This document shows positions 4,353 through 9,530 of a stretch of 64,000 nucleotides of DNA, in pieces. The notes under the pieces are model-generated. The model ran no database searches. It was not told the origin of the DNA and saw only the letters and a list, made by a program, of their open reading frames with translations. The position numbers and the translations under genes were made by a program. Origin of the DNA: Lysobacterales bacterium (lineage in GTDB: Bacteria > Pseudomonadota > Gammaproteobacteria > Xanthomonadales > SZUA-5). The DNA lies in contig JALHMG010000004.1 of NCBI GenBank assembly GCA_022844135.1, positions 1 to 64,000 on the forward strand. The letters are read 5' to 3'. The first letter of the stretch is position 1. The number at the start of each line of letters is the position of its first letter.

Positions 4353-5057
4353 ATGATGGAATCCATCGACATTGGACGCCGCAGCGCGCTGCAGCGAATG
4401 CTTGCGCTGGCGGGCATCGCCGCCATCGGCGGCTGCTCGCGCACGCGGCACGGGGCGTTTCGGGCGCTGTACGCCACGCCATCCGGCGCGCGCGTCGCCT
4501 TCGACTATTGGGACACGCGCCACTATCGTTTCACGCCGGTCAACGGCGGCATCGATACCTGGGTGGTGGACGCAACGATCTACCTGGTGATTGCACCATC
4601 GCTGGCCTTCGCCAATCGCGGCACCTTGCATCGCGTGGGACCGGCCGCGCCGCTGCCGCGCGCCAACTCATCGGTGAAGGCCGAGCTGCGTTCCAGCGCG
4701 CTCCCTGCAGCAACCGTGGCTGCCTGGGCGTTGAACACGCCGGTGTTCGACATCGCCGTTGCTGGGATAGCGCCGGGCACTGCGCTCGACATCACCGTAG
4801 CCGAGTTGCCGGCATTGGCGCATGCCCAGTTCGTCGCCGATCAATGCATGCGAAGTGCGATGGACATGACGCTGTGCAGCGCTTCGATCAGTCAGCTGCT
4901 TGCTGCCTGGCCGGCGCACTTGACCGGCCAGGGTTTCGCCGCGCTCGCATCTTCAGCAGGTGTGCACTTGATCGAGCCGTTGAGCGAGTTGCAAGAGTCG
5001 CTGCGGTTGCCTCAAGACTACGAGTTCCAGGACCTTGGGCGATTTCTCGGCCGGTAG
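4353..5057 (+). CDS. exported hypothetical protein, Tat/lipoprotein-like N-terminus
   Basis: A 234-aa protein. The N-terminus reads GRRSALQRMLALAGIAAIGGC: twin arginines, a hydrophobic stretch and a lipobox-like IGGC around residue 28, suggesting a Tat-exported lipoprotein. The mature part is rich in Ala and Leu and contains no motif I recognise. Two ATGs in tandem (4353, 4356) are possible starts. It lies 49 bp behind the CBM6-like exported protein and probably shares its transcript, ending at the hairpin at 5163-5193. Confidence 0.65.
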   Translation: MMESIDIGRRSALQRMLALAGIAAIGGCSRTRHGAFRALYATPSGARVAFDYWDTRHYRFTPVNGGIDTWVVDATIYLVIAPSLAFANRGTLHRVGPAAPLPRANSSVKAELRSSALPAATVAAWALNTPVFDIAVAGIAPGTALDITVAELPALAHAQFVADQCMRSAMDMTLCSASISQLLAAWPAHLTGQGFAALASSAGVHLIEPLSELQESLRLPQDYEFQDLGRFLGR

Positions 5058-5238: not shown

Positions 5239-5967
5239 TCACCAGCGATTAAACCAGATGCGGTAATCGCCGGGGGCGTTGTTGTTGTACAAGATCCCGA
5301 TCTCGGACAGTCGCGGACTGACGGTGTCGGGTATGTACACATATGCGGTGCTCTCATGCGACAGCTCTGCACAACTGAGTTTCACGGCCCAGGCGTTGGG
5401 AAACGCCTTGCGGATGTCGATCGTCGCGCACGGCTTCGGCTGCGGATCAGTCGGGTCCTGGTACGGATAAGGCAAGTAGGCATGAGCAATGAATGAACCG
5501 GTGAGCGCCGATTGGTAAGTGATCCGGACTCTTTGTTCGCTCGGTTCTACACTGAGCTCCATTGATGCCGTGTCGCCGCTGGTTGCCGAGTCGAAAAACA
5601 GCGACAGGAAAGCAAAATCTCCGCCGGCGACTGGATCGCTGAGCCTGGCTCCCCGAATCTCGGCGCGGAACGGTCCGGTTGGCGTGGCGCGCAGGTCGCG
5701 CACCAGCGTGCCGGCCACATATTCCGGGGCGCCTCCGAGGGGCGGCGGTTCGACGATGATTTCGCAACCTATATCGCCCCTTGTCGGGGCCACGCCCAGA
5801 CCGTGGAACCCCAGGGCTCGTCCATGTTGCAAGCGAAAAAGGCTGGAGGTTACATCTACAGTGACAGCACCATCGATTCCGTCTAGTTCGCAGAAGACTT
5901 CGTCCGGTGCGGCCATGGCGGTGCTGCAACCGAGCGCCAGCGCGAGACAGAGAATGCGACGTTTCAT
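5239..5967 (-). CDS. secreted hypothetical protein coupled to the Ser/Thr kinase gene
   Basis: A 242-aa protein with a clear Sec signal peptide (MKRRILCLALALGCSTAMA, cleavage after AMA). The mature region has four or five cysteines and looks beta-rich; no family recognised. Its ATG overlaps the stop of the upstream kinase gene by four bases (ATGA), so it is co-transcribed and probably translationally coupled to the kinase. That position makes it a candidate extracytoplasmic partner, ligand sensor or output of the kinase, which is inference. Confidence 0.75.
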   Translation of the reverse strand: MKRRILCLALALGCSTAMAAPDEVFCELDGIDGAVTVDVTSSLFRLQHGRALGFHGLGVAPTRGDIGCEIIVEPPPLGGAPEYVAGTLVRDLRATPTGPFRAEIRGARLSDPVAGGDFAFLSLFFDSATSGDTASMELSVEPSEQRVRITYQSALTGSFIAHAYLPYPYQDPTDPQPKPCATIDIRKAFPNAWAVKLSCAELSHESTAYVYIPDTVSPRLSEIGILYNNNAPGDYRIWFNRW

Positions 5968-8519
5968 GGTTTTCTCTCCTTGGGTGATTGTGGTGTGGAT
6001 TGGATAGGAAGCAGCATTTCGTTTTGCGCCATGCGCAAAGCAATGGAGTCGTCGGGCAGCTGATCGAGTCGATCTCGGATCGTTGCCAAACGCCGTGTGG
6101 CGGCGTCGGCCTGCCCCGAGCGGTGTTCTGCGATGCCCGCCAGGAGTTCGAGTTCAACAAGGCTCTTCGCCGAGTCGTCCGGGCTTGAGGCGAGAATTCG
6201 GCGCGCGTTGTCGACCGCCTGGATAGCGTTCTGAGCCTGGTTGGCGGCAAGCAAGGCGGCTGCGTGACGCGCCCAGAAGAACCCCAGTTGGCGTGTATCC
6301 GGCGGCCACAATTTGTGGCCGATATCGAGAGCGATCTGACTGAACCGAAGGGCATTGACCGCATCGATGGGTTCGCGCAGAAACGCAGCCGAGCCGTTGA
6401 ACGCGATGGTGGCGCGCGTGGCGCTGGTATCGCCTTCGATGTCTGCCGATCGGTTGAGCGCGTCTTCGAATGCCTGACGCGATTCGAGAAGCTCGCCCCC
6501 TTGGAGCAGGTCCAAAGCGTACGATGCCTGCGCCATCAAATAGCTGCGGTGTTGTTCGCCATACAACTGGCCCGCGATCTCCAGCGTCTTGCGCGTTGCC
6601 TGCAGTGCTTGCGCATGACGCCCCGAGCGACGATAGAGCCGGCCTGCCAGGCGCCAAAGCGTCAGCGTATCGTTGTTGATGGATCGATCTGTTTCCAGAG
6701 ACTTGAGCAGCGACTCTGCTTGCCGGACCGCGTCGTCGGAGGAATCCGCGTCCAGGCTGAGGACCTGTATCGACGCAATTTTTGCGCTCACGGTCAGTGG
6801 ATGCTGCTCGCCGAGCCAGCGCACCGAATCGGCGTACAACTGATCGGCCAGTGGCTTGATGGGTACTTGATTAAGCTGCCGCTCGACACTCAGGCCGAGA
6901 TGTCGGAATCGAAAATGCCACACATCCGGCGGTTGAATTGCGGCCAGCATCCTGGCGACCTGCGCACGCGCTCCGATAGCGTCGCCGCGGGCGAACCCGG
7001 CCGCCTGGCGCCAGTACTCCGCAGCAATCCTGAAGTCGTCGGACTCACTCAATCCAACCGCCTGCCCGGCGAGTTCACCAGCAATATCGAATGCGCCGAG
7101 CGAGTAGTAAACTTCAGCCAGTGTGGTCAGGAGAGTGGCGTTCGTATCCGAGTCGAGCCCCGTGTGGCGGGCAATCGCCAGCCGGGCTTGATCTACGATC
7201 TGCCGAGCGCTGACTTCATTGCCTTCGGTTCGATTCGGGTCCGCAGCGCGAAATGCTTCGACCAGCAAATCGCTGACCACAGTCGCGCGCTCGCGTTCGG
7301 CGATCGCGACATCGCGCTGATGGCGAAAGATCAGGCCTGCAGCGATCAGGCCGGCGACCAACAAAGCACTCAGTACGCTGGCGACGCGATGCCGTTGGTA
7401 CAGCCGGCGCAGTCGGTACAGTCGTTCTCCGGCCCGCAAGCTGATGGGTTCGAGCGCGATAACGCGCTGCAAGTCGTCGGCCAATGCTGCGGCGCTGGGA
7501 TAGCGCTGTGTTGGCTCCTTTTCCAGGCAATGGAGGACGATGCTGTCGATGTCGCCTTTGAGCGCGCCTGGCTGATAAGGCAGCCCATTTCCGGCACGCG
7601 CGCTCGGCGGCGGCGGTGCGGTTGATAGCAATAATTCGCGTGCCGCCGCAAAAGGCATGCTTTCCAGGTCGAACGGTGCGCGCCCCGCGAACAGCTCGTA
7701 ACACAATCCACCCAGGCCGTAGACGTCGACCGTGGCGCCGTCGTCTGTGCCGCGAATCTGTTCCGGCGCGGCATAGGCGAGCGAAAAATACTGCTGTCCG
7801 TCGCCGTCCTCGGATGCGGCTTGAGCCGAACCATCGACGGTGTCCGCGAGACCGAAATCGAGCAACTTTGGAACACCGCGAGCGTCGACAATGACATTGC
7901 CCGGCTTGACGTCGCGATGCAGGATCAAGTGCCGGTGCGCGTGTTCTACGGCGCGCGCGACGGCAAGCGCCAGATGCAGCCGGTCCCGCAGGTTCAACTG
8001 TTGGCGGGCGGCATAATCGAGCAGCGGTATGCCATCGATGTACTCGAGAATGACGTAGGGCATGCCGTCCGGCGTTTCGCCAGCATCGATGAATCGCGCG
8101 ATATTCGGATGCTCGAGTTTGGCCAATAGACGGCGCTCGCGCCGGAAACGCTCGCCCAGGCCGACCGCATCCAGACTGGTGCGCAGCGTTTTGATCGCCA
8201 CCGCGTGATCGGCGCGACCGTCGCACCGTCTCGCGAGATAAACATGTCCCATGCCACCGGCGCCGAGCAGATGTTCAATCCGGTAGGCACCCAGCACCGT
8301 GCCGGCCGGGAGCACGGTCATAGCGGCCAGTCGCGAAACCGCGGTTTCCGTGCGCACCGGATTGGCATCGGCGTCGAGCAACGCACGCAATTGCTGAGCC
8401 AGGGCAGGGTCGGCGCCTTCGATTTCGTCGAGCCGTTGCGCGCGCAGGTCCGCCTCGACGTCGATCAGCTCGTCGAACAAGCGGTACATCTGCGCTAACT
8501 GGTCGGCTTCGATGTTCAT
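5964..8519 (-). CDS. membrane Ser/Thr protein kinase with TPR-like C-terminus
   Basis: An 851-aa Hanks-type kinase from the ATG at 8519 (a TTG seven codons upstream is possible). Kinase landmarks: GAGGMGHVYL near residue 86, VAIK (K110), HRDVKPGN (about 201-208), DFG (221-223), APEQIRG, and DVYGLG. One membrane segment is visible at about 379-398, placing the kinase inside and roughly 450 helical, TPR-like residues outside. The intact catalytic residues predict activity. The gene diverges from an ECF sigma factor of the type that lacks a classical anti-sigma factor; in Vibrio the EcfP sigma of that class is activated by the kinase PknT. A four-base overlap ties it to the secreted protein downstream. 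Confidence 0.9.
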   Translation of the reverse strand: MNIEADQLAQMYRLFDELIDVEADLRAQRLDEIEGADPALAQQLRALLDADANPVRTETAVSRLAAMTVLPAGTVLGAYRIEHLLGAGGMGHVYLARRCDGRADHAVAIKTLRTSLDAVGLGERFRRERRLLAKLEHPNIARFIDAGETPDGMPYVILEYIDGIPLLDYAARQQLNLRDRLHLALAVARAVEHAHRHLILHRDVKPGNVIVDARGVPKLLDFGLADTVDGSAQAASEDGDGQQYFSLAYAAPEQIRGTDDGATVDVYGLGGLCYELFAGRAPFDLESMPFAAARELLLSTAPPPPSARAGNGLPYQPGALKGDIDSIVLHCLEKEPTQRYPSAAALADDLQRVIALEPISLRAGERLYRLRRLYQRHRVASVLSALLVAGLIAAGLIFRHQRDVAIAERERATVVSDLLVEAFRAADPNRTEGNEVSARQIVDQARLAIARHTGLDSDTNATLLTTLAEVYYSLGAFDIAGELAGQAVGLSESDDFRIAAEYWRQAAGFARGDAIGARAQVARMLAAIQPPDVWHFRFRHLGLSVERQLNQVPIKPLADQLYADSVRWLGEQHPLTVSAKIASIQVLSLDADSSDDAVRQAESLLKSLETDRSINNDTLTLWRLAGRLYRRSGRHAQALQATRKTLEIAGQLYGEQHRSYLMAQASYALDLLQGGELLESRQAFEDALNRSADIEGDTSATRATIAFNGSAAFLREPIDAVNALRFSQIALDIGHKLWPPDTRQLGFFWARHAAALLAANQAQNAIQAVDNARRILASSPDDSAKSLVELELLAGIAEHRSGQADAATRRLATIRDRLDQLPDDSIALRMAQNEMLLPIQSTPQSPKERKP

Positions 8520-8957
8520 CGATCTGTCTGACGTCGGCAATCAACCGGCATTGGTTCTCAAACGCGTACCGGTGTGGGCGCGCCGATCAGAATGATTTGT
8601 CAATCTGTGCAAAAAGCTGGGTTGGTACGAAAGGTTGCCAGCGTCAACACGTGCGACCGATGTGGTTTCTCAACGCAAGTCATTGATTCCAATGGATCTG
8701 GTTGCATCCTTACATTGAACGCTTGCAGATCTTGCAATTCGCCGATGTGCGCGAAAAGGTACGATCACTTTAAGGGCGTTGCAAGCTTAAGTCGCGGCGT
8801 GCGCGCCCTCCGGGTCTTGGTTCGCGGCAGTTGGGATACAAGCGTCGGAACTGAAGGCGCTATGCATAGTCGATCTTTGTGCTTGAGGCGTCGATAGTCG
8901 CACCACCATCGGCGCTTCGTTTTGACCCAGGGCGATTTTCAGGAGACGAATGTCGAT
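8520..8957 (+). promoter_or_regulatory. divergent kinase/sigma intergenic region with candidate ECF promoter
   Basis: This 438-bp gap is less G+C rich than its neighbours and separates the divergent kinase and sigma genes. On the plus strand, GGAACT (8847-8852), a 16-bp spacer and GTCGAT (8869-8874) resemble an ECF-type -35/-10 pair about 84 nt before the sigma start, which would fit autoregulation. A 107-codon frame at 8574-8897 contains two CxxC pairs but has no good ribosome site; I do not call it. Confidence 0.4.
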
Positions 8958-9530
8958 ATGGGCAACATTACGGCGCTGCTGCAGGATTGGCGCTCTGGCA
9001 ATGCGGCGGCCGAGAGCGAGTTGATCTCCCTGCTATATCCAGTATTGCGCGAGCAGGCTCATGCGCAATTGCGCCGCGCGGCGAACGCAACGCTGCAGAC
9101 GACGGAATTGGCAAACGAGGCGTACGTCCGGCTGCGCGAGCAACTGGGTGTCGATTGGCAGAACCGGCAGCATTTTCTGGCGATCGCGGCGACGGTCATT
9201 CGGCGTGTGCTGGTGGATTACTTGCGGGCGCGCGCCGCCGAGAAGCGCGGCGGCGGTTTGGCAGTGATGCCGATCCACGAGTTGCTGGACAGCGATCATC
9301 CCTTGGGTAGCGATGGGCTGGACTGGATCGCTCTCGATGAAGCGCTCACCAAATTCGCCAAGGTTGAGCCGGCAACCGCCAGAGTCGTCGAATTGCGGCT
9401 CTTCGGTGGCCTCTCCGTCGAAGAAATTGCGGAGGTGACGGAGACGTCGATCGCGACGGTCGGTCGGCAATGGCGTTTTGCGCGCGCGTGGATCGCGACC
9501 AGTCTGATGATTGCTAACCAGCCACGGTGA
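8958..9530 (+). CDS. ECF-type RNA polymerase sigma factor (ECF43/TIGR02999-like)
   Basis: A 190-aa protein with sigma-70 region 2 (about 5-95) and region 4 (about 120-185, helix-turn-helix around LSVEEIAEVTETSIATVGR). The stretch HFLAIAATVIRRVLVDYLRARAAEKRGG is the hallmark of the TIGR02999 group, which is often paired with Ser/Thr kinases in Xanthomonadales and planctomycetes. I chose the ATG at 8958, preceded by CAGGAGA; the frame is open from a TTG at 8922. No anti-sigma gene is adjacent. The divergent kinase is the likely regulator, by analogy with EcfP-PknT of Vibrio; targets are unknown. Confidence 0.88.
   Translation: MGNITALLQDWRSGNAAAESELISLLYPVLREQAHAQLRRAANATLQTTELANEAYVRLREQLGVDWQNRQHFLAIAATVIRRVLVDYLRARAAEKRGGGLAVMPIHELLDSDHPLGSDGLDWIALDEALTKFAKVEPATARVVELRLFGGLSVEEIAEVTETSIATVGRQWRFARAWIATSLMIANQPR

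Follow-up and report, generated by a model that had tools for sequence, protein, structure and literature searches.

An ECF43-type sigma factor/kinase module of a Lysobacterales bacterium with a kinase-coupled secreted protein and a candidate promoter dyad

Introduction

ECF43 sigma factor genes adjoin genes for Hanks-type kinases, and two of these sigma factors, EcfP of Vibrio parahaemolyticus and EcfK of Xanthomonas citri, are phosphorylated at a threonine of region 2.2, for which the group has the consensus QTTA (PMC13147305, PMC8999054; here and below, statements on published systems refer to the accessible parts of these papers). PMC13147305 refers to a collection of 1032 ECF43 proteins. 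EcfP, with its kinase PknT, serves a response to polymyxin, and the target of EcfK, with its kinase PknS, is a type VI secretion system. Here we describe a module of an ECF43-type sigma factor, a Ser/Thr kinase and a secreted protein on contig JALHMG010000004.1 of a Lysobacterales bacterium (GCA_022844135.1, a draft genome of 5.34 Mb in 75 contigs). The window is the stretch of 64,000 nucleotides that was analysed (WIN in lists of loci). Fetched loci, genomes and contigs carry L-, G- and C-numbers respectively, and P0003 and P0004 are the secreted proteins of the window and of locus L038. We propose, with a probability of about 0.6, that this is a phosphorylation-activated sigma module and that the output of its sigma clade would be secreted proteins.

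The window module resembles EcfP/PknT and EcfK/PknS

The module comprises the following features.

8958..9530, plus strand: ECF43-type (TIGR02999) sigma factor, 190 aa (PF07638 2e-45, TIGR02999 1.6e-56)
9096..9107, plus strand: region 2.2 motif QTTE of the sigma factor (alignment of 68 sigma factors)
5964..8519, minus strand: Hanks-type Ser/Thr kinase, 851 aa (Pkinase 2.3e-40, TPR_12 2.4e-8)
5239..5967, minus strand: secreted protein P0003, 242 aa (signal-peptide-like start; 4-base overlap with the kinase gene at 5964-5967)

The sigma factor scores 191 bits against TIGR02999 (cut-off 126), a family that we take to be the equivalent of the ECF43 group. Its reading frame is open from TTG 8922, and the likely start is ATG 8958, where the Pfam match begins and which is equivalent to the first residue of the homologue in L038. 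In region 2.2, DAED is replaced by QTTE: the acids of positions 1 and 3 are gone and the Glu of position 4 stays. The Thr that is residue 49 counted from ATG 8958 (codon 9102-9104) is the equivalent of T51 of EcfK and of the phosphorylated Thr of EcfP (motifs from PMC13147305 and PMC8999054), and Thr occupies this site in 64 of the 68 aligned sequences. The window shares with EcfK (QATE) a Thr followed by Glu, whereas EcfP (STTA) has no acid here. The preliminary description of this DNA had suggested looking for acidic residues replaced by Ser/Thr in this region; the Thr at the phosphorylation site was found, but since the Glu is retained, as in EcfK, the acid loss is only partial. As with EcfP/PknT, the kinase gene lies beside the sigma gene and region 2.2 carries a Thr in place of the acids found in other sigma factors, and the same mechanism would be expected.

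The kinase has all the features of the PknS type: an N-terminal extension, a Hanks domain (residues 79-346) with all catalytic motifs looked for (GAGGMG, VAIK, HRDVKPGN, DFG and APEQ; the kinase lysine is residue 110), one transmembrane segment, recognised as the sole strong hydrophobic helix (residues 379-398 approximately), and an outer part that contains tetratricopeptide repeats (TPR). Its top match in the Protein Data Bank is 9eed (E 5.3e-51), which is the PknS kinase of X. citri (PMC13147305). A Pfam scan of eight neighbouring proteins of the window detected no anti-sigma domain. These results bear out what had been claimed from the letters alone, namely a complete kinase with one membrane helix and a TPR-like outer part, an ECF43-like sigma factor of a group lacking anti-sigma partners (as far as the eight neighbours go), divergent kinase and sigma genes, and a secreted protein whose gene overlaps that of the kinase by four bases.

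The window differs from EcfK/PknS in that its sigma and kinase genes diverge and a secreted gene overlaps the kinase gene; for EcfP/PknT, too, the accessible text of PMC8999054 and PMC13147305 describes no secreted partner. Searches of openly licensed PMC papers brought up neither a secreted partner gene nor the dyad described below, and the accessible text of PMC13147305, PMC8999054 and PMC8103513 names neither; published ones may have been missed.

The sigma/kinase pair taken alone is ordinary. A phmmer search of fetched stretches of the source genome gave 28 ECF43-type sigma open reading frames (ORFs), and a kinase-like ORF accompanies 26 of them within the stretch (a weak match in L019; two kinases for three sigma ORFs in L012), so that the pair as such is one of many. 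The commonest order is sigma then kinase on one strand. The divergent arrangement is uncommon: besides the window it was seen only in L016 of the source genome, in L038 and L062 among 32 homologous loci, and in L106 and L116 among 20 later stretches (also in L105, which is L038 again). The closest relatives of the window sigma factor are from Lysobacterales metagenome-assembled genomes and Tahibacter. L038, the nearest orthologue, has the same divergent layout with a 68% identical sigma factor, and the outer parts of the two kinases are 36% identical (L038 is on G003:C112). The best PknS-like kinase in 101 genomes of the order (59%, G020) has no sigma match within the fetched 19 kb; its neighbours (kinase at L292:9359-11860, G020 C18) resemble, by eye, a response regulator and a glutamine synthetase.

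In one sigma clade the kinase gene is mostly followed by a secreted gene

A maximum-likelihood tree built from 68 sigma factors contains a set of 26 rows (support 98/88). The rows are not a random sample: they are paralogues from the source genome, the nearest homologues and loci from a kinase search; EcfK is not among them, and L019 and the second sigma factor of L120 (too short) as well as L105 and L112 (duplicates) were left out beforehand. Many close relatives carry, after the kinase gene, a small Cys-rich secreted protein of 141-199 aa. All 14 rows with this small family and all four with longer secreted proteins (window, L038, L106 and L107) fall inside the 26-row clade, and none of the 42 rows outside it has either label. 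A profile scan of all 81 stretches likewise found the small family in no row outside, and added two clade rows, L053, where the gene is inverted after the kinase, and L057, where the ORF (L057:3521-4000) diverges from the sigma gene and the contig ends inside the kinase gene.

A secreted gene on the same strand follows the kinase in 18 of the 26 clade rows, signal-peptide-like starts being judged by a simple rule devised for this analysis. L110 and L051 have longer signal-peptide-like ORFs after the kinase, L053 and L056 have inverted ones, and in L049 no secreted gene was seen there; L044, L057 and L054 end at contig borders or lack a kinase match and could not be judged. The usual neighbour after the kinase in this clade is a secreted gene, which in most cases belongs to the small Cys-rich family. 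The modules of Tahibacter, Pseudomarimonas and other Lysobacterales (L039-L043, L045-L048, L050, L052, L068 and others) share with the window the clade, the TPR kinase and the secreted gene after it, but their sigma and kinase genes are co-directional and their secreted proteins belong to the small family, and the window differs in both respects. Judged from sequence, secreted genes are coupled to such kinases more widely than could be seen from the window alone. Just outside the clade, L109:6781-8197 holds two tandem secreted-looking ORFs (222-226 aa) convergent with an ECF43 kinase, and no dyad was seen there.

A dyad with fixed spacing precedes many of the secreted genes

We compared 30 junctions, 24 between kinase and secreted genes and six between secreted genes, several of them from closely related Tahibacter. 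The dyad TGA(T/G)C(G/C)-N17-CG(A/C)GT is present in 20 of the 30 at spacer 17, and spacers 11-16 and 18-23 gave one occurrence in all, at spacer 15. A slightly wider form was found in 22 junctions, against 0.05 expected from letter shuffles. A matrix trained on these 22 sites (effective number 12) detected six sites from outside the training set. Three stand upstream of inverted secreted genes (L053, L171 and, in Alteromonas, L056) and three upstream of kinase genes (L107, L108 and L038); for each of the six, p per region is at most 0.003, the regions having been picked after a scan of the whole locus. In 25 regions upstream of sigma genes of the source genome the best score was 2.2.

The dyad could be another kind of element, for instance a regulator site or an mRNA feature of the junction, and in many junctions its first bases are indeed the TGA stop codon of the kinase gene, so that the stop sets part of the -35-like half. 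We consider this unlikely: dyads also lie away from the kinase stop, between tandem secreted genes, before kinases and before inverted genes, and an exact spacing of 17 bases is typical of promoters.

A site of this type in the window faces the kinase gene, and the L038 kinase is preceded by the same dyad core with a different spacer sequence.

8562..8589, minus strand: candidate sigma-dependent promoter TGATCG-N17-CGCGT, 42 bp before the kinase ATG at 8519

With the dyad in this position, the kinase and P0003 would be induced together.

Sites of the form TGAKCS-N17-CGAGTA were then collected from ten genomes (35 sites) and evaluated by a fixed rule, which requires, 25-135 bases downstream, the start of an ORF with a signal peptide and a length of 100 aa or more. 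Fourteen of the 35 qualified. Without the six junction sites, 8 of 29 did, against none of 30 control sites with N16 (those of the 45 N16 sites that had loci; Fisher p 0.002). In a second set of ten genomes, treated in the Discussion, the rule missed three more sites before secreted-looking ORFs; they were noticed post hoc and are not counted (L294, cut by the contig; L310, at +281; L312, at +142). Candidate targets behind the dyad include a subtilase (L224) and a protein of L244 with a sub-threshold phospholipase A2 match. The latter (L244:550-1392, G045 C33) is a secreted protein of 280 aa, its sub-threshold match being to PLA2G12, about 5 kb from a sigma/kinase/secreted module. At L310 (G031 C217:6605) the dyad stands 281 bases before a 241-aa secreted ORF, and another match to a TPR kinase is close by; this may be one more module whose secreted protein is of the longer kind.

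In the source genome, 3 of the 41 sites with the window dyad core qualified under the same rule, one of which looks spurious. The most convincing, TGATCG-N17-CGAGT, lies 92 bases before the gene of a 319-aa secreted protein with no Pfam match (L204:1501-2580, C20:8101), a second candidate target in this genome. With 41 copies, the core recurs on average every 260 kb or so of strand, and simple arithmetic puts a chance match within 250 bases at about 1 in 1000. A backwards control for the exact core gave no matches and is unfair, as its core GCTAGT contains CTAG, which is avoided in many genomes.

The earlier promoter candidate is not supported

The preliminary description had named another site, upstream of the sigma gene, as an ECF-type promoter.

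8847..8874, plus strand: GGAACT-N16-GTCGAT, earlier promoter candidate, not supported (exact string present)

The string is exactly where it was reported, but its function as a promoter is not supported. The relaxed form GGAAC-N15-18-GTC occurs five times in the window against 7.6 expected, and the string is absent from the sigma-upstream region of L038. The genome scan that had been suggested yielded five copies of the full GGAACT string at N15-17 (backwards control, one). There is a mild excess of the relaxed form upstream of clade sigma genes (3 of 28 regions, the window included, against 0.4 expected from shuffles), and with up to two mismatches the full string occurs 14 times in the window against 4.3 in shuffles. 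We rejected this site as a promoter; TGATCG-N17-CGCGT at 8589-8562 is the better candidate.

P0003 and the small Cys-rich family

P0003 has no Pfam or NCBIfam match. L038 encodes a 247-aa secreted protein, P0004, at the same place and with the same 4-base overlap, which also occurs in one L120 module. P0003 and P0004 are weakly alike (23% over 107 residues, E 0.009 in a single comparison). Sequence searches found P0003 homologues in 6 of 299 genomes of the order at E ≤ 0.01, the five besides its own being weak partial matches. Sequence comparison left a relation to the secreted proteins of L106-L108 unproven, and a structure model was unusable (pLDDT 37). Membership of P0003 in the small Cys-rich family was considered and rejected (hhalign probability 9.8); alignment A3 against the family reached a probability of 15.9, in the signal-peptide region only.

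Fifteen members of the small family were aligned (A2) and show several invariant Cys, a C-E-A-W-P-Q-like core and an invariant Tyr. None of the 15 has an NCBIfam match, and Pfam gave a single weak match in one (E 0.003). A search of 398 genomes of the order with the family profile returned at least 33 matches in at least 22 genomes. Among the 33 matches listed, 21 come immediately after a sigma/kinase pair and share its strand, five are second tandem copies, one is adjacent and inverted (G031), two are cut by the contig start, and four lie elsewhere (G017, G122, G176 and G127; those of G122 and G017 near a contig end). As 11 of the 33 had built the profile, the remaining 22 are the fairer count: ten downstream, five tandem, one inverted, two cut and four elsewhere, four of the five tandem copies being at loci already used for the profile. 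Among 369 genomes of the class (share outside the order not stated), only two had matches, both of this order.

The model of a small-family protein (pLDDT 75; best Foldseek E 8e-3) shows some resemblance to many Ig/FN3 chains (VIA Z at most 8.6 over about 75 residues). Residues 73-151 may form an Ig/FN3/PKD-like sandwich, which would be an ordinary binding fold and uninformative on function. One may imagine closed circuits in this branch of phosphorylation-activated sigma factors: the sigma factor would induce a fast-diverging secreted Ig-like or all-beta protein, and that protein would act on the periplasmic TPR part of its cognate kinase, making private receptor/ligand channels; we regard this as improbable.

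Two further observations concern other parts of the window. A lipoprotein-like ORF of 234 aa at 4353-5057, with no Pfam or NCBIfam match, is convergent with the P0003 gene. The segment 1595-1846 is nearly identical to the stretch after the L024 kinase (translation GNHRVGRTDRVFAAISSLTRPSLVLCAGLFVARR) and is probably a dispersed repeat of the source genome.

Discussion

By analogy with EcfP/PknT and EcfK/PknS, a cue from the outside or the envelope would act on the periplasmic TPR part, the kinase would phosphorylate Thr49 of the sigma factor, and the phosphorylated sigma factor would bind RNA polymerase. Comparative genomics suggests that the active sigma factors of the clade may recognise TGA(T/G)C(G/C)-N17-CG(A/C)GT and transcribe secreted-protein genes, first the one adjoining the kinase. 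In the window, where the site faces the kinase, kinase and secreted protein would be co-induced, giving positive feedback plus a secreted product. The dyad at fixed spacing before the secreted genes of related modules favours reading the secreted protein as a product of sigma activity and not as an input, and P0003 is suggested to be such an output, with autoregulation of the kinase.

Several points weigh against this proposal. The matrix found no dyad at the junctions of L106, L049, L120, L068 and L023, and in L068 and L107 the top-scoring sites are at other places of the locus. The window dyad is weak on its own, with a matrix score of 5.2 and a p per region of 0.05: at least eight other sites in the 64 kb outscore it, as does one of 24 kinase ends of the source genome (5.5, the best there), and the 41 genomic copies of its core have been mentioned. 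In the ten genomes, N17 sites (35) are not commoner than N16 sites (45), so that most N17 sites are chance occurrences. One of the eight qualifying sites (L221) looks like a spurious ORF, and replication was weaker in a second set of ten genomes (20 sites; 2 of 19 non-junction sites qualified). P0003 is without detectable relation to the small Cys-rich family. In the sigma factor, one acidic residue remains in region 2.2, and the linker Thr106 of EcfK (PMC13147305) has no evident equivalent: Ser, Thr, Asp and Glu are absent around this position, tentatively, by a gapless hand count with EcfK not aligned.

The preliminary description had seen in the secreted protein a possible component of outside-in signalling. 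On this view it would be an input that partners the TPR part in the periplasm, either by binding a ligand or by inhibition; it would be co-translated with the kinase for proportion, and the sigma targets would lie elsewhere. The 4-base overlap in the window, L038 and one L120 module speaks for this, as does the position of the secreted gene after the kinase, not after the sigma gene, in the divergent modules WIN, L038 and L106. TPRs are also typically protein-binding, and PknS truncated of its periplasmic part fails to complement (PMC13147305). However, 20 of 30 junctions hold a promoter-like dyad of their own ahead of the secreted gene, one is also present ahead of inverted genes, and the dyad stands before other secreted genes too. 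Co-divergence of the secreted protein with the TPR part was considered as a sign of partnership and rejected, being not specific (once the kinase domain is accounted for, partial r 0.18 and p 0.055); given the TPR part, the kinase domain and the sigma factor co-diverge with the secreted protein equally well. An input role is thus not favoured, and we hold it to be somewhat unlikely. Both roles might be combined if a sigma-induced secreted protein acted back on the kinase in an extracellular or periplasmic feedback loop. This would join the operon coupling with the dyad, and the fast divergence and tandem copies of the secreted proteins would suit a ligand, but the same non-specific co-divergence counts against it and we think it distinctly doubtful.

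Under the proposal that secreted proteins are the sigma output, what appears to be new is the secreted gene commonly found after the kinase in this clade and the dyad at fixed spacing, the kinase/sigma step being that of published ECF43 work. ECF43-type modules are abundant, yet, in the accessible literature, targets are described for two, one being a type VI secretion system and the other a polymyxin-resistance regulon. With a candidate promoter motif and a partner gene adjoining the kinase, the sigma output in one clade could be predicted from its DNA, and a secreted family without convincing Pfam or NCBIfam match would come first among the products worth studying.

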